A stretch of 52,195 nt of DNA from Gammaproteobacteria bacterium. GTDB lineage: Bacteria; Pseudomonadota; Gammaproteobacteria; Xanthomonadales; SZUA-5. The DNA lies in assembly GCA_030430155.1 (NCBI GenBank), contig JAUIFV010000009.1, positions 1 through 52,195 on the forward strand. Direction: 5' to 3'. Positions 312-51,433 of the stretch are shown here, in pieces. A program made the position numbers and the translations under genes. The notes beneath the pieces are model-generated. The model saw only the letters and a list, made by a program, of their open reading frames with translations. It searched no databases and was not told where the DNA came from. Each line of letters opens with the position of its first letter. Within the stretch, counting starts at the first letter, position 1.

Positions 312-1700
312 TCACTGCTTGGGCCGAGTAATCGCGGCCGGAGGTAAGGTATCCATGCCCATATTGGCCGGCACCTGATAGATCTGGCGCGGCTGCGGCT
401 GGGCGCCGCTGATCAGTTTGCCGTCGCGGCCGTAGAAATCACGCTGGGAGTTGGCGATGAAGTAGAAATTGTCGCCGACCAGGGTGCCGACGGTCGGTTC
501 GACCAGCTCCGGCTTGTTCGCCTCCAGCGGCATCACCCGGGTCACCGCGTTGCCTTCGGCGGTCAGCGTGTAGCGCGAGATGCGCTTGGGCTGATTGACG
601 TTCTGCACCGCGATCAAATGGTCCTGGTACCAGCTCAGATGCTCGATGCCGCCGAAGTTCTGCCCGTCCAGCTTGAGGTTGATCACCTCGTTCTTGTTCA
701 TGTCGGCGGCGAGCAGGCCCAGCTCATAGTCGGACAGGTACAAAAAGCGCTCGGCGGGATCGATGGCGATGCCGCGCAGATTGACCGACGCCGGCAGCGC
801 CACCAGCGGCTCGATGGCCGAGCCCTTGATCCTGTAGAGCTGGTTGGAGACCCCGTCGACCGCGTAAACGGTGCCGCTCTGCGGCGCCACGCTCAGCGCA
901 CCGACCAGGTGCGGCTTGCCGTCGCCGGGAATTTCATAGCGTTCCAGCATCTCGCCGCTGCTCAGCTTGAGCTTGACGATGACGCCGCGGCCCAGCTGCT
1001 CACGATCGTAGCCGGCGAAGTGCGGCAGCATGGTCGAGGCCAGCCACAGGGCATCGCGCTGGTCATCCACCGCCAGCGCCAGCACGCCCCACCAGTCGCC
1101 GGCGTTGGCCGGTTTGGCGCGCTCGGTCGCATTACCGTCGCTGTCAACGGCGAGTACCTGACCGCTGCGCGCCGAGCCCAGCAAGAAGCGTTTGGCCTTG
1201 CTGTCGTAGGCCAGCGACTCGAGCAGTTCCACATCGCTGTTGACCGTGGTCACCACCTTGCCCTGGCCCCAGGGCGAGGCGTTGGCCTGCAGCCCTTCGA
1301 CGATGTACTTGTAGGCATTGGTGGAGGCGATCGGCTCGAAGACCTCCGGCAGGGTGCTGGGATCGTAGGACAGCCCCTGCGCCTGCATCCGCAGCAGCAG
1401 ATCGTAGGCCGGGGTCTTCATATCGCGCTCGCCGTAGGCCTGGGCCAGCTTGAACATGAACGCGCCGTTGTAGGGGCGCAGTGCGACCAGCCTCTCCAGC
1501 GCATAGGTATAGCGGCGCAAATCGCCCTCGTCGTACCAGCCCTTTGCCTTGGCCATCAGTTCGACCACGTTGTCGATCCGCGACAGCTCCAGCTCGGTGT
1601 CGGTGGGCAGCGGCGGCGGCGCGCTGGGCAGCGCCTGCGCCCGCGCCTGCATCCCGCCCAGGGCCAGGCTCAGCGTCAGTGCGAAAATCATCCCTTTCAT
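312..1700 (-). CDS. Exported protein with N-terminal TPR-like segment and beta-propeller
   Basis: A 462-residue protein with a signal peptide (MKGMIFALTLSLALGG, then ARAQA). ATG at 1700 was chosen because GGAAG lies 7 bases upstream and the signal peptide starts there; an open frame continues further upstream. Residues about 45-130 form a TPR-like helical stretch (RYTYALERLVALRPYNGAFMFKLAQAY type). Residues about 150-440 show repeated strands typical of six-bladed NHL/SMP-30/YncE-like propellers, with 'LRGIAIDPAERFLYLSDYE' as one blade. It is probably a periplasmic binding or sensing protein. No catalytic residues can be assigned, so function is unknown. It is divergent from the Nudix gene, with a repeat in the shared upstream region. 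Confidence 0.75.
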   Translation of the reverse strand: MKGMIFALTLSLALGGMQARAQALPSAPPPLPTDTELELSRIDNVVELMAKAKGWYDEGDLRRYTYALERLVALRPYNGAFMFKLAQAYGERDMKTPAYDLLLRMQAQGLSYDPSTLPEVFEPIASTNAYKYIVEGLQANASPWGQGKVVTTVNSDVELLESLAYDSKAKRFLLGSARSGQVLAVDSDGNATERAKPANAGDWWGVLALAVDDQRDALWLASTMLPHFAGYDREQLGRGVIVKLKLSSGEMLERYEIPGDGKPHLVGALSVAPQSGTVYAVDGVSNQLYRIKGSAIEPLVALPASVNLRGIAIDPAERFLYLSDYELGLLAADMNKNEVINLKLDGQNFGGIEHLSWYQDHLIAVQNVNQPKRISRYTLTAEGNAVTRVMPLEANKPELVEPTVGTLVGDNFYFIANSQRDFYGRDGKLISGAQPQPRQIYQVPANMGMDTLPPAAITRPKQ

Positions 1701-1799
1701 GGGGCAGCTTCCGTGGGAAAAGGCGAGGGTAGACAAGGCTGGTTGCGTAGAGTTCCGCAAAGGTGCGGCATCGTTCTTAGCTGTTTGCTTTCAGCTGAA

Positions 1800-7209: not shown

Positions 7210-9288
7210 ATGGAAGAGATCCGAAGCCTGATCATCCAGGGCGATTTGAGTCAGGCCGACGCGCGCATCACCTCGCGGCTGCAGCTCAACCCCGCCGACG
7301 TGCAGCTGCAGTTCCTGGCCGGCGTGGTCAAACTGCGCCTCGCTGAGGGTGCGGCCGCGCAGGAGTGCTTCGAGTCCTGCCTGCTCAGCGAGCCGGACAA
7401 TGCCCTGGCCTTCATCGGGCTGGGACAGGCGCTGCGCCTGCAGGGTCAGCCGGTGGCCGCCCAGGCCGCTTTTGACAGCGCCGTGTACTTCCAACCGCTG
7501 CTGGCCGGGGCGCACGCGCTGGGCGGTGAGCTGGCGATGTTTGATGGCGATAGGCCCGCCGCCACCGAGCGGGCGATGGCCGCGCTGCATGGCGGCAGCG
7601 ACGATCCGCAGGCGCCGATGGTAAGCGCCGCACTGGCGCTGCAGGGCGGCGAAGCGAAAACGGCGTTGGAAGGTCTGGAAGGGCTGCTCGGCGGTGCACA
7701 GCTCTCCCCGCGAGTGGCGCAGATCGGCTGTGCCGCGCATCTGGTTATGCAGCAGGTCGATCAGGCCCTGGCCTTGATCCAGCGCGCTCACACCGGCACC
7801 GGGGCGATGCCGGCGGCACTGCGCTCGCTACAGATGCGCGCCCTGCTTGCCGGGCAGCGCCGAGCCGATGCCGAGCGCACCGTGCGCAGCTACGTCTCCG
7901 AGCACACCCAGTCGGCCGACGCCTGGAGTATGGCCGCCGAAACCGAACTGGCCCGCGGCCAGTTCATCCATGCCATTGAAGCCGCCGACCGCGCCCTGGC
8001 GATCCGGCCCGGCAGTTCGCACGCGCTGCGACTGAAGGCGATGGCCTATCTGCGCGCCGGCAAGCCGCAGGTCGCCGAGGGCGAGTTGGAGGCGCAGGTC
8101 AGCGCCTATCCGGGCGATACCAAGTCCTGGCGCATGCTGCTGGCGGCGATCATCGGTCCCGGCAATCACAACAAGGCCGTCGAAGCCGCGCAGCGCTGGG
8201 TGGAGCTGGTTCCCGAGGAGGCCGATGCGCATGGTGATCTGGCCGCGCTGATGGAATACACCAGTGATCTGGAAGGCGCCATGCTGTCGGCACGTGCGGC
8301 GCTGCGGGCGCGACCGGGCCACATCAACGCGATGCTGATCGCGGCCCGCGCCGAGCTGCGTATAGGCCGCCCCGGCCCGGTGCTGGCGCGGCTGGATCAG
8401 GTCAATCCCGAGGCGCTGGACGTACAGCAGCGACTGGCCCGGCTGGCGCTGCTGGCACGGGCTGCCGATGCCAGCGACGACCAGGCTCTGGCCGTGGCGC
8501 GCTGGCTGGAGAAGAACAACAGCGACCCCACACTGCTCAAACCGGGCACGCCCAAGGCGGTGGAACAGACCCCGGTCCCGGCGCACCAGTCGGTGCTGGC
8601 TGTCGATCACCCCGAACCGATCTGCTTCCTGGTCGGTCTGCCCGGCAGCGGTGTGCAGCATGTCGCCGCGGCGCTGGCCAAGGTGCCCGGCGTGGCCATG
8701 CTCGGCGACCGCTTCAGCCACATGGCCCGCAACGACGGTTTCGCTCGTCCGGAATGGGCAACCTTCGAGCAGGGCCTGAGCGAGACCCAGGCCCGCCTGC
8801 TGCGTCGACGCTGGCGCAAGGCGCTGCATCGCCTGCAGCTGCCGGCCAGTTACACCGTGCTGATCGACTGGCTGCCGCATCTGGATGCACGGATGTATGC
8901 CGCCATCGCGCGGGCGATTCCGGAGGCCAGGTTCCTTTGGGTGGACCGCGATCCGCATGATGGCCTGCTTGACTGGCTGGCCTTCTCCAGCCCGCACCGA
9001 CTGCAACTCCCGGATCTGAGCGAGGCCGGGCAGTGGTACGCCAACGCGCGCAGCCACCTGAATTTTGCCGCCGCCGATGAGCGCCTGCCGGTGCACACGT
9101 TGCACTATGAGAAGTTCGGCGAGCAGGGAACGCGCAGCGAACTGATGGCTTGGCTGGGTGTCGCCGAGCAAACGCTCAGCGCCGAAACCCCGAAGACCCT
9201 CGGCGGACTCAGCGCCGAGTTCGCGGCCGGCCACTGGCATGACTACGTGGACGAGTTGAGTGCGGCCTTTGCGGCTTTGAAGCGGTAA
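7210..9288 (+). CDS. TPR protein with C-terminal sulfotransferase-like domain
   Basis: A 692-residue soluble protein. Residues about 1-430 are tandem TPRs (for example AADRALAIRPGSSHALRLKAMAYLRAG, split here across two helices). The C-terminal domain, from about 470, begins FLVGLPGSGVQHVAAALAKV, which resembles the 5'-phosphosulfate-binding loop of sulfotransferases, and continues with LWVDRDPHDGLLDWLAF and LHYEKFGEQGTRSELMAWLGV, matching the 3'-phosphate and tail regions of the Sulfotransfer_3 group. The usual Lys/Arg of the loop is replaced, giving GSGVQH, so activity is uncertain. TPR-sulfotransferase fusions are common in Lysobacterales and Caulobacterales. ATG 7210 has only a weak ribosome-binding site. 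A heptad repeat arm starts directly after its stop. Confidence 0.8.
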   Translation: MEEIRSLIIQGDLSQADARITSRLQLNPADVQLQFLAGVVKLRLAEGAAAQECFESCLLSEPDNALAFIGLGQALRLQGQPVAAQAAFDSAVYFQPLLAGAHALGGELAMFDGDRPAATERAMAALHGGSDDPQAPMVSAALALQGGEAKTALEGLEGLLGGAQLSPRVAQIGCAAHLVMQQVDQALALIQRAHTGTGAMPAALRSLQMRALLAGQRRADAERTVRSYVSEHTQSADAWSMAAETELARGQFIHAIEAADRALAIRPGSSHALRLKAMAYLRAGKPQVAEGELEAQVSAYPGDTKSWRMLLAAIIGPGNHNKAVEAAQRWVELVPEEADAHGDLAALMEYTSDLEGAMLSARAALRARPGHINAMLIAARAELRIGRPGPVLARLDQVNPEALDVQQRLARLALLARAADASDDQALAVARWLEKNNSDPTLLKPGTPKAVEQTPVPAHQSVLAVDHPEPICFLVGLPGSGVQHVAAALAKVPGVAMLGDRFSHMARNDGFARPEWATFEQGLSETQARLLRRRWRKALHRLQLPASYTVLIDWLPHLDARMYAAIARAIPEARFLWVDRDPHDGLLDWLAFSSPHRLQLPDLSEAGQWYANARSHLNFAAADERLPVHTLHYEKFGEQGTRSELMAWLGVAEQTLSAETPKTLGGLSAEFAAGHWHDYVDELSAAFAALKR

Positions 9289-9343
9289 GGCTCAGGGCAC
9301 AGGGCTTAGGGCCCAGGGCCCAGTCGGCGGCGGCCGTGGCGCC
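9289..9343. repeat. Single heptad arm with core remnant
   Basis: Four G-rich heptads (GGGCACA, GGGCTTA, then GGGCCCA twice) start one base after the TAA of the TPR-sulfotransferase gene, followed by a GC-rich core-like stretch (GGCGGCGGCCGTGGCGCC). No matching C-rich arm with the same unit order follows, so it looks like half an element. Confidence 0.65.
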
Positions 9344-9384
9344 TTGACGGCCCTGCTGGCGATCGAGCCGTTGCGGGGATCAGG

Positions 9385-9410
9385 AGCATCGCTGGCAGGC
9401 AAGCTCCACA
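9385..9410 (-). repeat. REP-like sequence, diverged copy
   Basis: Reads GGCAGGCAAGCTCC, close to the left-pointing REP at 9638-9664 but with several changes. It lies 28 bp from the right-pointing copy at 9438. Confidence 0.55.
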
Positions 9411-9437
9411 AGAATGCCCGATCGGTTGTCGCTCTCC

Positions 9438-9463
9438 TGTAGGAGCCTGCCTGCAGGCGATCA
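9438..9463 (+). repeat. REP sequence, forward orientation
   Basis: Reads TGTAGGAGCCTGCCTGCAGG then CGATCA. This is the classic gammaproteobacterial REP type (GTAGGAGC, short hairpin, GCGATC) associated with RAYT transposases in Pseudomonas and Xanthomonas. Confidence 0.75.
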
Positions 9464-9637
9464 GACTTATCGGTTCGCACGGAACAATTCCGTTTGCCGA
9501 GACCTGGCGTATCGCCAGAACGATGCGGCGTCCGGCCACACGACCAATATCGCCGAGACCGGATTCGGCTCTAAGGAGCTTGCTCACACGCGACCGCGGC
9601 GCGGCGCCGTACTGCAGTTCCCGGGCATGCGCAACAT

Positions 9638-9664
9638 CTGATCGCTTGCAGGCAAGCTCCTACA
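9638..9664 (-). repeat. REP sequence, inverted orientation
   Basis: Reads GATCGCTTGCAGGCAAGCTC then CTACA, the inverted counterpart of the copy at 9438-9463. Together with 9385-9410 it makes a small REP cluster inside the 460-bp gene-free gap between the TPR-sulfotransferase and SEC-C genes. Confidence 0.75.
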
Positions 9665-9683
9665 ACAGCGACAAACTATCCTG

Positions 9684-9746
9684 CCTCAGCCCTCAGCCCT
9701 CAGCCCTCAGCCCTCAGCCCTCAGCCCTCAGCCCTCAGCCCTCAGC
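9684..9746. repeat. Nine perfect tandem heptads (CCTCAGC on +, GGGCTGA on -)
   Basis: Nine uninterrupted 7-bp units, 63 bp in all. The minus strand reads GGG every seven bases with CTGA spacers, which can form stacked G-quadruplexes. The array runs directly into the TAG stop of the SEC-C gene at 9747-9749, whose bases continue the repeat phase. It differs in unit sequence from the arm at 9289, so the two are probably not a pair. Confidence 0.9.
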
Positions 9747-12832: not shown

Positions 12833-13678
12833 ATGCCCAGCTTTGCCGAACGACTGACCGCCCGCATCGAGCACTACGGGCCGCTGTGCATCGGCATCGA
12901 CCCTTCGACCAAGCTGCTCGCAACCTGTGGTTTGCCTGACAGCGCCGCGGGCGCGCTGGATTTTGGTCGTCGGGTGATCGACTCGGTCGATGCCGAACTG
13001 CCAATCATCAAGCCGCAGGTGGCCTACTTCGAACGCTACGGCAGCGCCGGCTGGCGGGCGCTGGAACAGCTCAGCGCACACGCACGCAGCGCCGGTCTGA
13101 TGGTGCTGGTGGACGGCAAGCGCGGCGACATCGACGCCACCGCCGATGCCTACGGTGACGCCTATTTCGGCGCACAGAGCCTGCTCCCAGCCGACGCCAT
13201 CACCGTGCATGCCTACCTGGGCTTTGCAGCGCTGGCTGGGCTGGTCGCCCGGGCCCGGGCGGCTGACGGCGGCGTCTTCGTGGTGGTGCGCTCGTCCAAT
13301 CCCCAAGGTCAGTCGCTGCAGCACGCCCGCGACAGCGACGGCCGCAGCGTGGCCGAGAGTTTGGCCGCAGAAATCAGCGCCGACAACGCCGCCCACGGCG
13401 ACGGACTGGGCGCGGTCGGCGCGGTGGTGGGCGCGACCTGCGACGACGCCGCCGATACCGTCGCCGCCCTGCCCCAGTCGTTCATCCTGGCCCCCGGCGT
13501 CGGCGCCCAGGGCGCAACCCTGGCCGATGTCGCCGAGCGCATGCCGGCGGCAGCAGGGCGAGTCCTGCCCAGCGTGTCCCGGGCGATCCTGGCCGGCGGC
13601 AGCGAGCCAGCGCAGTTGCGGCGGACGATTTTGGCGTTAAGGGAAGAGGCTAAGCGAGGGCTGAGGGCTGAGGGCTGA
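12833..13678 (+). CDS. pyrF: Orotidine 5'-phosphate decarboxylase (PyrF, class II)
   Basis: A 281-residue enzyme that catalyses the last step of UMP synthesis, OMP to UMP plus CO2. The N-terminus [12 protein letters not shown], the catalytic [15 protein letters not shown] segment (Lys/Asp/Lys-Asp network), [20 protein letters not shown] and [10 protein letters not shown] place it in the longer class II (PyrF type 2) family of actinobacteria, myxobacteria and some gammaproteobacteria. ATG 12833 was chosen by alignment with the fold start. The C-terminal residues RGLRAEG and the TGA stop are encoded by GGGCTGA heptads, so a repeat forms the 3' end of the gene. Confidence 0.93.
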
Positions 13679-13853
13679 GGGCAGAGGAAAGCGTCGCGGG
13701 TCGGAGCGCTGGGCTCCGAACGACGCTGCCTTGTATTCGCGGACGACTGGAGGCGGGCACGCTGCGCTTTGCCCACCCTACGACTGACGGCAACTCTCCA
13801 CGCCAACTCGCCTACGGCCCCAGCCCCGCTCTTCTCAGCCCTCAGCCCTCGCT
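13653..13853. repeat. Inverted repeat unit with GGGCTGA-type arms
   Basis: A perfect 20-bp inverted repeat (AGCGAGGGCTGAGGGCTGAG at 13653-13672 and its complement at 13834-13853) frames a 161-bp interior. The left arm overlaps the pyrF 3' end. The interior holds a short hairpin (GTCGGAGCGC...GCTCCGAAC) and the known-looking repeat at 13752-13782. The same left G-rich/right C-rich order is seen in the heptad-armed palindromes. Confidence 0.8.
13752..13782. repeat. Dispersed hairpin repeat (GGGCACGCTGCGCTTTGCCC type)
   Basis: Matches a palindromic intergenic sequence that I recall as widespread in proteobacteria: a GGGCACGC / GCTTTGCCC stem followed by ACCCTACG. It lies inside the 13653-13853 unit. 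Function is unknown. Confidence 0.6.
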
Positions 13854-21892: not shown

Positions 21893-21921
21893 GAGGGCCC
21901 AGGGCTCAGGGCCCAGCTGGG
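21893..21921. repeat. Single heptad arm (G-rich)
   Basis: Three heptads (GGGCCCA, GGGCTCA, GGGCCCA) followed by GCTGGG. The unit order and the GCT tail recur, inverted, in the array at 39318-39389, but the distance makes pairing unlikely. Confidence 0.6.
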
Positions 21922-34835: not shown

Positions 34836-34936
34836 AGGGCCCAGGGCTTAGGGCCCAGGGCCCAGGAGATCAAGAGCGCACGGCGGCTTGTTGTTGCTCT
34901 TCTTTTCTGGGCCCTGGGCCCTAAGCCCTGGGCCCT
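34836..34936. repeat. Heptad-armed palindromic element (copy 3), perfect 30-bp arms
   Basis: Left arm 34836-34865 and right arm 34907-34936 are exact reverse complements over 30 bp, including the variant unit GGGCTTA in the same place. The 41-bp core contains GATCAAGAGCGC and an inner AAGAGC/GCTCTT pair. It lies between convergent genes, and the right arm runs into the TAG of the VOC gene, so it may serve as a bidirectional terminator. Confidence 0.9.
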
Positions 34937-35359
34937 CTACCCGCACCGCCCACGCAGCGGATGATCCTCATTCAGCTGCAGCAAGTCCCAGCGATTGCCG
35001 TACAGATCCTCAAACACCGCCACCTGACCGTACTCCTGCTTCGCCGGTTCACGAACGAAGCGAACGCCCTCAGCGCGCATGCGCTGATAGTCAGCCTCAA
35101 AATCATCGGTGTGCAAAAACAGAAACACCCGGCCGCCGGTCTGGTTGCCGACAAAGGGCTGCTGCTGGGCGTTGGAGGCTCGCGCCAGCAGCACGGTCGT
35201 GCCGCTGCCGCCGGGCGGGGCGACTACCACCCAGCGTTTGTCCTGCTCGGGCTGGTAGGTGTCCTCAAGCAATTCGAAGCCGAGCTTGCCGACATAAAAG
35301 GCGATCGCCTCGTCATAGTCCCGCACTACCACCGCAACGTGGATGATGGCCTGCGCCAT
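34937..35359 (-). CDS. VOC (glyoxalase/bleomycin resistance) superfamily protein
   Basis: A 140-residue protein with paired beta-alpha-beta-beta-beta modules: IIHVAVVVRDYDEAIAFYVG, LGFELLEDT, RVFLFLHTDDFEADYQRM, FVREPAKQEYGQVAVFEDLY, GNRWDLLQ. Metal-site positions His (AIIHVAV) and Glu/Asp (VFEDLYGN) are plausible. The reaction cannot be predicted. Its ATG overlaps the TGA of the bestrophin-like gene (TGATG), so the two are coupled. Confidence 0.88.
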   Translation of the reverse strand: MAQAIIHVAVVVRDYDEAIAFYVGKLGFELLEDTYQPEQDKRWVVVAPPGGSGTTVLLARASNAQQQPFVGNQTGGRVFLFLHTDDFEADYQRMRAEGVRFVREPAKQEYGQVAVFEDLYGNRWDLLQLNEDHPLRGRCG

Positions 35360-38049: not shown

Positions 38050-38088
38050 GGCGGCCGCAGTAGGAGAGGTATGAGAAATGTGGGCTAG
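38048..38088 (+). repeat. Partial copy of the 180-bp element (3' end only)
   Basis: Matches 38228-38268 over 41 bp with two mismatches, one of them at the outer edge. It abuts the full element B directly and shares its CTAG end, and overlaps the 5' end of the DUF2207 frame. Confidence 0.85.
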
Positions 38089-38268
38089 CCCGCCTTTCCC
38101 ATACCTGTCCGTAGCGAGGGCGCCGAGAACGTGGTGTGGTGCGGTGCGCGGACTGGAAGACCGCGTAGGCGTAGTCGAAACTACGTCAAGCGGGCTGGAG
38201 GGAGCACGCCGCGCCACGCCGCGGAGATCGGCGGCCGCAGTAGGAGAGGTATGAGAAATGCGGGCTAG
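38085..38268 (+). mobile_element. 180-bp element with terminal inverted repeats, copy B
   Basis: A 184-bp unit with 21-bp terminal inverted repeats, CTAG outermost, that match at 19 positions. It carries an internal hairpin at 38170-38185 (CGTAGT / ACTACG around CGAA). About 100 internal bases align with element A at 39116-39292. It has no coding capacity for a transposase, so it resembles a MITE. Its right end contains the TAG stop of the Rieske gene. Confidence 0.8.
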
Positions 38269-38659: not shown

Positions 38660-39130
38660 CTAAGCAGTTTCGGTGGTGGTCGCCTTCTCGCCGGCCAACG
38701 CTGCCTGCAGCGCGGCAATCGGCAGAGTCACCGCACGCCGCCGCGAGGGATAGGCACGCACCCCAGCCAGCGCCGCCAGCTCGCCCAGATCCGGATCCAG
38801 CGGCTGGTCGGGCTCGGCCTCCAGGCTGGCCCGGGCGCGAGCCGCGTAGTCACGCGCGGCATCCAGCGCCATTCCGCGCACCATCTCGGTCAACATCGAC
38901 GCCGCCGCAATGGTCAGCGCGCCGGCCTCGGCCTCAAAGCGTGCGTCGAGGATCTGCTCATCGGCAATCCGCAGGCGCATATCGATGCGATCCCCACAAA
39001 GCACGTTGTGCCCCAGCGCCTGATGCGTGGCGCCATCCAGCGGCCCCCGATTACGCGGCTGCCGATGATGCCCCAGCACCACATTGCGATAGGTTTCCGC
39101 CCAGGAAGGATCCCCAGCCTGCATTTTCAT
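38660..39130 (-). CDS. SufU/NifU-like scaffold protein lacking two conserved cysteines
   Basis: A 156-residue protein with the IscU fold: ETYRNVVLGHHRQPRNRG, NVLCGDRIDM, LTIAAASMLTEMVRG, VRAYPSRRRAVTL. In SufU, three Cys bind zinc or cluster; only the first (CGDR) is kept here. The second is Ala (EAGALTI where GEGCSIS is usual) and the third is Ala (RRRAVTL where IKCATL is usual). It is unlikely to bind a cluster in the normal way. The first codons, MKMQA, are encoded by the terminal repeat of element A, and no ribosome-binding site is clear. Confidence 0.8.
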   Translation of the reverse strand: MKMQAGDPSWAETYRNVVLGHHRQPRNRGPLDGATHQALGHNVLCGDRIDMRLRIADEQILDARFEAEAGALTIAAASMLTEMVRGMALDAARDYAARARASLEAEPDQPLDPDLGELAALAGVRAYPSRRRAVTLPIAALQAALAGEKATTTETA

Positions 39131-39292
39131 GAGGTTTCTACTGCGCCCGCCGGAGAGCCGCGGTGGCGCGGCCTGCTCCCTACGATCGACTCGACGTACT
39201 GCCGAGTACGCCTTCGCCGATCTTCAGTCCGCGGTCCGCACCACAGCGCCTCTCCGACGGGCTCGCTACGAAAACTCATGAAAATGCAGGCT
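39116..39292 (-). mobile_element. 180-bp element with terminal inverted repeats, copy A
   Basis: A 177-bp unit bounded by an 18-bp perfect inverted repeat (AGCCTGCATTTTCATGAG at 39116-39133 and its complement at 39275-39292). It is in opposite orientation to copy B. The internal hairpin at 39195-39210 has CGTACT / AGTACG, so one base pair is swapped relative to copy B while pairing is kept. It lies between sufS and sufU and supplies the sufU start codon. Confidence 0.82.
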
Positions 39293-39317
39293 TGGTCATG
39301 CCGCGATTCTACTCTCT

Positions 39318-39389
39318 GCTCAGCCCTCAGCCCTCAGCCCTCAGCCCTCAGCCCTAGCTGGGCCCTGAGCCCTCTCCCCTGGGCCCTTT
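39318..39389. repeat. Compound heptad array downstream of sufS
   Basis: Four perfect CCTCAGC units (39325-39352) with partial flanking units are followed by GGGCCCT-type heptads to 39389. It starts 14 bp after the sufS stop, within the suf transcript. Confidence 0.85.
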
Positions 39390-47000: not shown

Positions 47001-47030
47001 AGGGCCCAGGATCCAGGGCCCAGGGCCCAG
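47001..47030. repeat. Heptad arm left of yedI-like gene
   Basis: Four G-rich heptads with the variant GGATCCA in second place. The inverted arm at 48433-48462 has the same layout (GGATTCA variant), so the two frame 1.4 kb containing the YedI-family gene. Confidence 0.8.
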
Positions 47031-48432: not shown

Positions 48433-48462
48433 CTGGGCCCTGGGCCCTGAATCCTGGGCCCT
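48433..48462. repeat. Heptad arm right of yedI-like gene
   Basis: Complement of the arm at 47001-47030 over 30 bp with one mismatch, inside the variant unit. It lies 14 bp downstream of the BNR-protein stop (minus strand). Confidence 0.8.
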
Positions 48463-48476
48463 TCGCTTAAACCAAG

Positions 48477-51077
48477 CTACTCAAACCCATTCGCAAACAG
48501 TTCCGACTGCGGCAGCGGCCACACCCAGGCGCCGCGAGAGCGGGTCCACACGGCCAGGGTGGTGAAGCCACGGTCGATGGTCATGTCCCAGATCATCACG
48601 TTGGGCAGACCCAGGTGCTTCTGCCAGACCACCGGGTTGGCCTCCACGTCGTCGGTGAAGTACAGCCCCCAGTCGGAGCCGGCGAAGACCTGGCGCGGGT
48701 TGTTGGGATTGACCATCACGCTGTTGACCGGAATGTTCGGCAGGTTGCCGGAGACGTTGCGCCAGGTGAAGGTGGCGCAGTTGGCGGTGCAGCGGACCTG
48801 GAACACGTGGCCGGGGGTGGCCGGGGTGTTCTGGTCGAAGCCGCCGGTCACCGCATAGCCAACCAGCGGGTCGACCGGGTCGGTGACCACGTCGAGGATG
48901 AAGCGATTGGGCAGCACGGTGTTGTTGTCGGTGACGTTGACCCAGGTCGCCGAGTTGGTCACGTCCTGACCCATGTCGAAACCGAACCAGACGTTGCCGT
49001 CATTGGTGCCGGCGATGGCGACATCGGGCGTGCTGACCGCGTAGCTGAGCTGGTTGATCACCGAGCGGTCATTCAGCGTGCCCTTGGTCAGATCCGGGCT
49101 GTTGATCTTCCAGCCGGTGGTCGGGGTGCCGCCGGTGACCGACTCCCAGACCCGGAAACTGCCGGCGATGATCCGCCCGCAGCCGGTTGCGGCGGGGCAG
49201 CCTGTGGTCTCGCCGCCGTACTGGTAGAGGTTGAAGTTGGTGATGAAGGGCTTGCGGTCGCCGGCCCAGCCGCTGGGGGTAGCGCTGACCGTGGAGTTGC
49301 TGCCCAGACCGCCGGAGGCGCTGTTGGTCACCCGGATGTTGCCGTTCTGGCTGGTGTAGTACCAGCGTTGCTGGTTGATCGGCTCGATCGCGCTCCAGAA
49401 GCCGTCGCCGCCGTTGCGGACGAACCAGCGCTGGGCATCGAAATTGCCACCGGCCCAGGTCGATACCATGCATGAGTTGTCCTGGGCGCCACCCACCGCG
49501 CTGGCGTTCGGCGCGGTGTTGAAGTTGGGCGAAATGCCGCCGGAGTAGAACTCGATGGTGTTCAGGGTCTCGTTCAGTGACACCCAGGTGGGCGAGCCGG
49601 ACTGCGCATTGCCGGTGTAGTAGACGCCTCCATCGGTGCCGATCAGCAGTCGATTGGAGTCGCCGTTGACGAAGGCTCGACCATGATGATCGACGTGCGG
49701 TGCCGAACCCATGCTGGCAAAACTGGTGCCGCCGTTAGTGGTGCGATAGGTCCGCAGCGTGCTCATGATCACTGTGTCCGGATCCACCGGGTCGACAGTG
49801 ACGCCCGCGTTGTACCAGGCCTGGGTGCCGTAGGCGGAGTTGTTCGCTGACATCTGCGACCAACTGGTGCCGCCGTCGGTGGAACGCCATACCCCCAGCA
49901 TCACCGGTCCTTCGGCCGATCCCACCTGCGCGTAGATGACGCTGCTGTTGGATGGTGCGACGGCCAGATCGATACGACCGACGCTGTTGGTCGGCACCGG
50001 CACGCCGCCGCCGGTACCTGAAGGCCAACCGTTGTCGCCACGCGAAACCAGGGCCCAGTCGGTGGGACAGCCGCTGGACGGGACGGTGGCGGTGTAGACA
50101 CCGTTGGCGCCATTCTGATTCAGGTCCGGCTGCACCGCGGTTTCAAATCCGCGGGTGCCCACGGCGGCCAGTATGCGGGTCACTCCAGCGCCCATGTCGT
50201 TGACGATCAGGCCGGTGGTGTCCTGTCGCTGCGCGGTAAAGCCGTTGCTCAGGCAGGGACCGGTCCAGGTGTCGCCGGCATCGTAGGACAGGAACACGCC
50301 GGTCTTGGCGCCGACCAGGACGATGTTGGAGTTGTTCGGATCCACCACCACCTTGCCGATGGCCTGGTACTGCGGGACGCCATTGGCGCTGGGCGGGTAG
50401 AAGGGATTGAACACGTCGGCGCCCTTGACCTCCCAGCTGTCGCCGCCGTCGACCGACTTGAGGATGCCGTTGGAGCCGAAGGAGTAGGAGCCGTAGCGCA
50501 AGTCACCGGTTCCGGCGTAGAGCACGTCCGGGTTGTTCGGGTCCAAGGTCAGGTCGCCAATCGCGCTGTTCTGGATCGGCTCCATGGTCGCCGAGTTGTC
50601 GGTGGTGTTGACCCACGTGGTATTGGCATCGCAGCAGTTGGTGGTCTTCCACACGCCGCCGCCGTCAGATCCCATCCAGGCGACGTTGGGCATGGTCGGA
50701 TGGGACACCACCACGTTGGAGCGCCCAGCGACGCCGCCGCCGTTGCCCAACGGGCGGGGGCCCAGCGCGGTAAACATGGCCGGGTTCAGCGCCTCACCAG
50801 CACTGCGCTGCAGCGCAACGCCCTCAGGTATGGACTGCGGCACCTGCGCCGCTTCCAGCGCCGCCTCGCGCAGCCAGTTGGGGCTGAAGTGCCCGGTGGG
50901 GTAGCTGGCGCGGTCGGCCCAGAACGGGCCGTCATAGGCTTCTTCAGCCAGCTTGCCGGCCAGGCGTTCGCCCTCGTCGGCAGAGCCGGCGACCAGCAGC
51001 TTGCCGCTGGGTTGGGTGGCACAGCCGGCCAGAGCGCAGGCAATGGCGAGCAGGAGCGGGCGAGTAAAGCGGTTCAT
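48477..51077 (-). CDS. Secreted lipoprotein with BNR/VPS10-like propeller and FxxGFE tail
   Basis: An 866-residue protein with a lipobox signal (LLLAIACALAGC), so lipid-anchored after cleavage. The body is a large propeller with BNR-type Asp-box repeats (SVDGGDSWEV, SYDAGDTWTG, STDGGTSWSQ, TTNGGTSFAS) and Asn-Pro hinge motifs such as VDPNNSNIV, typical of VPS10/sortilin-like and sialidase-like propellers. No sialidase catalytic set is visible. It ends SELFANGFE, like the protein at 26509. ATG 51077 was chosen for the signal. It probably acts at the cell surface. A fragment of a related gene lies upstream at 51434. Confidence 0.85.
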   Translation of the reverse strand: MNRFTRPLLLAIACALAGCATQPSGKLLVAGSADEGERLAGKLAEEAYDGPFWADRASYPTGHFSPNWLREAALEAAQVPQSIPEGVALQRSAGEALNPAMFTALGPRPLGNGGGVAGRSNVVVSHPTMPNVAWMGSDGGGVWKTTNCCDANTTWVNTTDNSATMEPIQNSAIGDLTLDPNNPDVLYAGTGDLRYGSYSFGSNGILKSVDGGDSWEVKGADVFNPFYPPSANGVPQYQAIGKVVVDPNNSNIVLVGAKTGVFLSYDAGDTWTGPCLSNGFTAQRQDTTGLIVNDMGAGVTRILAAVGTRGFETAVQPDLNQNGANGVYTATVPSSGCPTDWALVSRGDNGWPSGTGGGVPVPTNSVGRIDLAVAPSNSSVIYAQVGSAEGPVMLGVWRSTDGGTSWSQMSANNSAYGTQAWYNAGVTVDPVDPDTVIMSTLRTYRTTNGGTSFASMGSAPHVDHHGRAFVNGDSNRLLIGTDGGVYYTGNAQSGSPTWVSLNETLNTIEFYSGGISPNFNTAPNASAVGGAQDNSCMVSTWAGGNFDAQRWFVRNGGDGFWSAIEPINQQRWYYTSQNGNIRVTNSASGGLGSNSTVSATPSGWAGDRKPFITNFNLYQYGGETTGCPAATGCGRIIAGSFRVWESVTGGTPTTGWKINSPDLTKGTLNDRSVINQLSYAVSTPDVAIAGTNDGNVWFGFDMGQDVTNSATWVNVTDNNTVLPNRFILDVVTDPVDPLVGYAVTGGFDQNTPATPGHVFQVRCTANCATFTWRNVSGNLPNIPVNSVMVNPNNPRQVFAGSDWGLYFTDDVEANPVVWQKHLGLPNVMIWDMTIDRGFTTLAVWTRSRGAWVWPLPQSELFANGFE

Positions 51078-51433
51078 CGGCGTTTCCGGCGGCGCGAAGG
51101 GTTCGCGGATCATCCGCGCGCGAGGGACAAATCGCAAGGAAACAAGTCAAGGTGTGGAACAACGACGGGACAGGCTCCATCGGTCGCGCTGCGGCGAGTC
51201 GATCGCATTCGACCGCTACTGCATTGCTCACTTCATGTAGAGAATCCTGGTGCGATTGCGACGAAAGCGAGAGGAGCGGGCCTATCGATGGCGCCATATC
51301 GGCACGGTTGGCGACGATTTAGCCAAAATTGCGCGGGCCATGAGCAGATTGACTCGTGACCCGCGCCGATTCCCTCATCGAAAAGCCTAGAAACGCATGG
51401 TGATGACCGGAGGCTTCTCCTGTTGCGGGTCCC
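51078..51433. other. 356-bp gene-free gap
   Basis: No gene, repeat or strong hairpin is supported here. Confidence 0.6.

Follow-up and report, generated by a model that had tools for sequence, protein, structure and literature searches.

Heptad-Armed Palindromes in the Window

The palindrome at positions 34836–34936 raises the question of what kind of element carries arms built from tandem 7-bp units. The window, i.e., the whole 52,195-nucleotide stretch analyzed here, is a contig (C191) from the genome of an uncultured member of the Lysobacterales (Xanthomonadales), hereafter G000 (5.06-Mb draft, 287 contigs, 96.6% complete). We favor, at a probability of about 0.45, the reading that such palindromes are REPIN-like dispersed elements acting as RNA hairpins at 3′ ends. 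An earlier sequence-only reading had described three complete copies of a heptad-armed palindrome with a common core, and these were confirmed at 212–301, 1799–1888, and 34836–34936. In the copy at 34836–34936, two 30-nt AGGGCNN heptad arms separated by 41 nt are 100% reverse-complementary. The left arm (34836–34865, plus strand) consists of the four heptads AGGGCCC, AGGGCTT, AGGGCCC, and AGGGCCC followed by AG, and the right arm (34907–34936, minus strand) is its reverse complement at 30/30 positions, a match that extends to the variant unit GGGCTTA/TAAGCCC, as claimed earlier. The core (34866–34906, plus strand), GAGATCAAGAGCGC ... GCTCTTCTTTT, also written GGAGATCAAGAGCGC...GCTCTTCTTTTCT, comprises the motif at the inner boundary, a loop, and a partial inverse of the motif. 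The right arm ends at 34936, directly beside the stop codon of a glyoxalase-like ORF (34937–35359, minus strand).

The second compact copy (212–301) has arms at 212–241 and 272–301 that are 90% complementary, and the stop codon of the ORF 312–1760 (minus strand) is about 11 bp away. The third (1799–1888) contains a 46-nt palindrome with 85% complementarity and lies in the divergent gap between the same ORF and a NUDIX gene; a short GGGCTGA pair comes next, at 1898–1908. The core GGAGATCAAGAGCG / GGAGAGCAAGAGCG was found in the compact copies, on the minus strand in the copy at 212. With one mismatch allowed, AGGGCNNAGGGC matched the window 51 times, compared with 9.0 ± 3.1 matches in shuffled sequences, and no Rfam family matched above its gathering score anywhere in the window.

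The list of three complete copies was incomplete, as further members and single arms are present in the window. A composite at 9287–9742, located in a convergent gap with a stop codon on each side, contains a GGGCNNA arm (9287–9321), several GTAGGAGC-type REP-like palindromes, and a GGGCTGA arm (9687–9742), with the heptad matches at 9294–9318 paired with those at 9690–9742. A pair of the GGGCTGA class (13657–13849) encloses a GTAGGGTGGGCAAAGCGCAGCGTGCCC REP-like palindrome. Lone arms occur at 21894–21914 (plus strand), at 47001–47028 (plus strand, degenerate, match at 47015), and at 48435–48462 (minus strand), the last adjoining the stop codon of the ORF 48477–51137 (minus strand). At 39321–39387 (matches at 39324–39387), a GGGCTGA and a GGGCNNA arm lie in tandem on the minus strand.

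Abundance and Arm Architecture

A pattern of three and a half heptads, AGGGCNNAGGGCNNAGGGCNNAGG, had 1073 exact matches in the genome (480 forward and 593 reverse), whereas the same pattern reversed as a control had none. A sample of 1.12 Mb of G000, in which early batches of contigs were picked for heptads and later ones were not, contained 265 arms, of which 53 had two units, 47 had three, 116 had four, and 31 had five, with a tail up to 17. The shortest arms thus have 2 units and the longest 17, and four is the most common number. Neighboring arms no more than 200 bp apart were convergent in 68 cases and divergent in 7. Extrapolation from the contigs not picked for heptads gives an estimate of approximately 940 arms in approximately 530 clusters for the whole of G000.

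The inner sequences of 44 compact pairs are recognizably alike, in either orientation, and read roughly AGRAGRTCAAGAGCGCGGGAANCCGGCTCTTCT. Pairwise identity of the cores averaged 0.56 (0.46 when shuffled), with the best pair at 0.86 (0.66 when shuffled). No near-identical recent copies were found among the cores, and a recent burst is not indicated because no two copies are near-identical.

The sequence-only reading had also proposed that variant units match between the two arms of an element and that arms are copied or corrected together. Variant units do match in the copy at 34836 and at L033:3249, only partly in the copy at 1799, and not in the copy at 212 or in most of 29 pairs compared. 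Across 106 aligned unit positions in these 29 pairs, 46 were identical, compared with 41.6 expected when arms were reshuffled among elements (p = 0.13), while variant units were present in both arms at 9 positions, compared with 4.4 ± 1.8 (p = 0.015). The perfectly matched copy at 34836 is an exception among the pairs. Concerted evolution of both arms, which this reshuffling supports weakly, was not retained as an explanation. What the two arms do have in common is their heptad class, which was the same in 77/77 paired convergent arms in G000 and in 18/20 in G008, a genome of the same family and another genus.

Interchangeable Heptad Classes and a Directional Inner Motif

Heptad classes were counted with Tandem Repeats Finder from arrays of at least three copies in samples partly picked for heptads. 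In the G000 sample, 174/237 tandem arrays have a period of 7, with the units GGGCCCA (109), GGGCTGA (28), GTAAAAC (equivalent to CGTTTTA; 12), and others. In G008, where loci were picked for heptads, 86/113 arrays have this period, and the units are GGGACCC (23), GGGAAAA/GGAAAAA (16), GGGGCAC (15), GGTTGTC (9), and GGGACTC (8). Three 21-kb stretches from unrelated bacteria had no period-7 arrays. Of 121 genomes from the order, 12 have arrays of the xanthomonad-type unit GGGAATC; in G000, the GGGAATC pattern had no match.

On the unit strand, an A-rich motif of the AAGAGC/AAAGC/AAGGCT type tends to occur 3′ of the array, no more than 22 nt away, and rarely on the other side. Its occurrence on the 3′ versus the other side was 76 versus 10 of 155 for GGGCCCA, 9 versus 1 of 32 for GGGCTGA, 14 versus 1 of 14 for CGTTTTA, 15 versus 0 of 32 for GGGACCC, 12 versus 0 of 21 for GGGGCAC, 6 versus 1 of 17 for GGAAAAA, 5 versus 0 of 11 for GGGACTC, and 8 versus 1 of 27 for GGGAATC (in other genomes), against a background rate of approximately 4%. 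This wider motif was chosen after inspection of most of the same data, so it is the asymmetry between sides, not the absolute frequency, that bears the argument. Strict AAGAGC occurs at lower rates (28/127 for GGGCCCA) and exceeds random expectation mainly for GGGCCCA, CGTTTTA, GGAAAAA/GGGAAAA, and GGGACCC; it is not exclusive to heptads because 8/85 arrays of other periods in G008 have it as well. The inner motif is weak or absent in the genome G031 and at many GGGAATC loci.

One class has AT-rich arms. CGTTTTA/CGTAAAA palindromes with an AAAGAGC-type core are located at L063:6625–6719, L163:2955–3076, L153:4421–4510, L161:6162–6265, and L157:568–690. The first of these has arms of about four heptads, a core of AAAGAGCAACAGCGG...GCTCTGGCTTTTT, and a predicted hairpin of −58.7 kcal/mol, and each unit contains one G and no G-tract. 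The heptad word is swappable for unrelated ones, with the period of 7 constant, the arrays mostly short, and the layout and short inner motif mostly retained. A wider reading, which we regard as doubtful, is that these palindromes form a superfamily across the Lysobacterales, in which a dedicated activity would maintain the 7-bp period, an arm length near four units, and the A-rich inner boundary of the AAGAGC type, while whole sets of heptads would be swapped from lineage to lineage and even from element to element within a genome. If so, the four-unit preference would reflect arm length or the counting of units by a protein and not G-quadruplex folding.

A link has been drawn between the preference of heptad repeats for four units and the four G-tracts per quadruplex, and an alternative is that the elements are G-quadruplex (G4) repeats as proposed for Xanthomonas, with four G3 tracts and 4-nt loops forming a G4 on either strand that regulates transcription or replication, the inversion being incidental. 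The four-unit mode and the fit of (AGGGCNN)4 to G3N4 are consistent with this, as is the in vitro G4 formation of GGGAATC (Rehm 2015, PMC4692102). Moreover, A, G, G, and G of the GGGCNNA units vary at only 0–1% compared with 38–59% for the two loop bases, where detection allowed at most one mismatch in AGGGC, and at 0–5% in a less biased count. The G-tract bases are thus among the least variable, which leaves room for a G4 role in the GGGCNNA class, although the A, which lies outside the G-tract, is conserved as much as the Gs. However, the CGTTTTA elements at L063:6625–6719 and L163:2955–3076 match the others in arms, pairing, and inner motif but lack a G-tract, so G4 formation cannot explain the architecture; this class is a natural G-tract-free control that makes the quadruplex explanation directly testable. 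GGAAAAA and GGTTGTC arrays pair too, and neither the strong orientation rule nor the common core is required by a G4. Since 3–5 units predominate in CGTTTTA and GGAAAAA arrays, two-unit remnants aside, the four-unit preference need not stem from four G-tracts. As an account of the family, G4 formation appears unlikely.

Position Relative to Genes and Predicted Hairpins

With genes assigned by a crude caller, elements occupy 28% of convergent, 13% of tandem, and 12% of divergent gaps, in agreement with the earlier statement that all three kinds of gap are used. Under the same caller, among 112 stop-facing sides, the element overlaps the ORF end at 21 and lies 0–9 bp away at 36 (57/112 together), and the distance to the stop codon peaks at 5–9 bp (25 observed, 10 expected under uniform placement), whereas start codons show no corresponding peak. 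Approximately one-tenth of the clusters lie inside ORFs called in this crude manner. As single strands, the elements fold in silico into one long hairpin, with z-scores of −6.4 to −11.4.

Placement just past stop codons and enrichment in convergent gaps are also what would be expected of intrinsic transcription terminators, often bidirectional, whose stems are repetitive by happenstance. The AAAGAGC...GCTCTTT core of the CGTTTTA class resembles a terminator, and the copy at 34836 contains one weak terminator-like call. However, the called site has a stem of only 6 pairs, and the long stem of this copy is followed by CTACCC in place of a U-tract (the other copies were judged by eye). Single arms, composite copies, and copies in divergent gaps also exist, and the heptads at L053:10774 lie behind a distinct terminator-like hairpin in both G000 and its congener G001. 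This hairpin and the missing U-tract uphold the earlier view that the palindromes are not just terminators, and we consider the terminator explanation quite improbable.

Comparison With Relatives and Mobility

Approximately nine G000 loci could be anchored on both flanks in G001, which belongs to the same genus. About six lack heptads there (9287/9687, counted as one locus, 13657, L053:9547, L053:16740, L053:17450, and L057:9622), and three have them (48435, found at L122, L053:10774, and L053:14499). The positions are therefore not generally conserved in relatives. The syntenic gaps of the copies at 1799 and 13657 in a further congener, G002, also had no heptads. No clean empty site was found in G001 or G002, whose intergenic DNA is too diverged for exact insertion points. 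One candidate, L053:16740 (377 bp compared with 22 bp in G001), was rejected as a whole island of different repeats is missing and not one element. Joining the flanks within the sample was likewise unproductive, the sole match across loci being the ortholog pair at 48435. Among the diverged copies, no consistent target-site duplication or flank preference was seen; no preferred tetranucleotide, including the GTAG/CGTC tag, was found outside the arms; and plasmid and phage records had no matches to the elements. The heptad-free loci in G001 indicate turnover between relatives, and the palindromes may be mobile repeats, as described earlier, although no clean empty sites, target duplications, or near-identical copies were found.

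Local simple-sequence repeats, arising by slippage at chance seeds and inverted via template switching without dispersal of a unit, could account for unit numbers spanning 2 to 17 and for unit classes that differ between related genomes. The gap at L053:14499 fits this explanation, as it has heptads in three congeners, with a GGGCCCA arm in G000 and GGGCTGA pairs in G001 and G002. On the other hand, unlinked loci have in common a non-heptad core and a directional inner motif, orientation is almost exclusively convergent, and the period of 7 is constant across unrelated sequences, which makes a purely local origin rather improbable.

The sequence-only reading had suggested looking for a dedicated transposase, and none was found. 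The draft genome contains one ORF with PF01797 (Y1 tyrosine transposase domain), at L076 (contig C187 of G000, approximately 1110–1780), and it adjoins paired GTAG-type REPs (GTAGGAGCC), not heptads; it is probably a RAYT with its own REPs. Across 41 genomes, Y1 counts showed no evident correlation with heptad content. A transposase link via PF01797 was therefore rejected, as the lone gene is tied to other REPs and the number of its copies across relatives showed no relation to heptad content. For these two reasons the elements are not classed as REPINs, and movement of true REPINs by a RAYT is very improbable despite the high-copy, intergenic, hairpin-forming inverted doublets, the single RAYT-like gene, and the GTAG-type REPs nested in or beside heptad clusters, given also that the heptad arms lack the GTAG/CGTC tag.

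Proposed Interpretation and Relation to Known Repeats

The reading favored here, of REPIN-like dispersed palindromes acting as 3′-end RNA hairpins, envisages an element of approximately 80–110 bp with the order [7-bp unit]×~4, A-rich AAGAGC-type motif, short loop, inverse motif, and inverted [7-bp unit]×~4. Each palindrome is one unit in that its two arms are of the same heptad class. Given their position just past stop codons, most elements are probably transcribed as 3′-UTR hairpins that, as proposed for classical REP elements, would block 3′-to-5′ RNA decay and impede read-through or antisense transcripts. The number of units and the two variable bases would drift through slippage and point mutation, a step suggested because arm length varies and the arms do not match each other. 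Spread, as whole palindromes, and upkeep may be REPIN-like and depend on a putative trans-acting factor for which the inner motif or the hairpin, not the heptad, would be the recognition feature. Against this reading, transposition was not seen in any form (near-identical copies, target duplications, and clean empty sites were all absent), the PF01797 ORF adjoins other REPs, some clusters lie inside called ORFs, and the variable bases, which lack compensatory matching, argue against strong selection for perfect pairing. The data point to a palindrome whose layout is fixed and whose sequence is exchangeable, which parallels REP/REPIN systems minus the partner protein, and the directional AAGAGC-type boundary together with the 7-bp period provides a motif for finding such elements with any unit sequence.

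The family had been called unrecognized, and its general kind is in fact already published. The available parts of Rehm 2015 (PMC4692102) describe G-rich GGGNATC heptads of Xanthomonas, which is in the same order, with a four-unit mode, convergent pairs, and proximity to stop codons, as well as GGGGA(T/C)T repeats of Nostoc. Those heptads resemble the present ones in the 7-bp period, the G3N4 units of the main class, the four-unit preference, the intergenic location near stop codons and more rarely between divergent genes, and the convergent inverted pairing (70 pairs in Xcc and 75 in Xac). They differ in that the main unit here is GGGCNNA, not GGGNATC or GGGGA(T/C)T, that several unit classes, one of them G-tract-free, are present per genome with a common core and a directional inner motif, and that approximately 940 arms are estimated here compared with 183–186 repeats per Xanthomonas genome. 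Positional conservation is also below the 83% given for Xcc/Xac, possibly because this comparison spans more distant genomes. In the same parts of that report, the present unit, its core, and the interchangeability of units are not described, and what is added here is that heptads are interchangeable while the inner boundary is conserved, and that a class without G-tracts serves as a natural control.

Like REPINs and GTAG REPs (Bertels & Rainey 2011, PMC3116915; Di Nocera 2013, PMC3733652), the elements are high-copy inverted doublets with short spacers that form hairpins, lie downstream of genes, also occur as singlets, and vary in sequence type by species. Unlike them, the arms are tandem heptads and not one short palindrome, the GTAG/CGTC tag is absent, and no RAYT is linked in this 96.6% complete draft. 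Geobacter metallireducens has GGGACCG ×4 elements at 49 sites, also within genes (PMC2700814), which share a G-rich heptad, four units, and many sites; this genus belongs to a distant phylum, and the available portion of that paper reports no inverted pairing. Bacterial MITEs are similarly small, non-coding, and intergenic with inverted repeats, whereas here no target duplication was seen and no parent insertion sequence was identified.

Other Repeats Near the Heptads

Heptad-flanked clusters of the window enclose two GTAG-headed REP-like families, GTAGGAGC... and GTAGGGTGGGC... (9340–9680 and 13760–13790). Of the GTAG-type REP copies sampled, 56% lie no farther than 300 bp from a heptad cluster, and such zones make up 8.5% of the sample. 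At L057:9622–9961, a unit of approximately 85 bp is tandemly duplicated, each copy containing half a core and a single heptad arm, so heptad arms can also multiply inside longer direct repeats. In another family of the Lysobacterales, approximately 98 GGGAATC-type heptads are arranged in tandem at L255 (G037:C1, from 326876 onward).

A MITE-like repeat of approximately 180 bp with 26-bp terminal inverted repeats occurs in the window at 38085–38268 and 39113–39295. Its relatives were found at dozens of sites in G001 and also at L053:5975–6153 and L053:16520–16701. Another tandem repeat of approximately 13 bp, TTCCAGTAGCCAG, adjoins such a MITE and heptads at L053:16410–16480, and GCCAGTN arrays like this one are present in G002 at L229 and L119.
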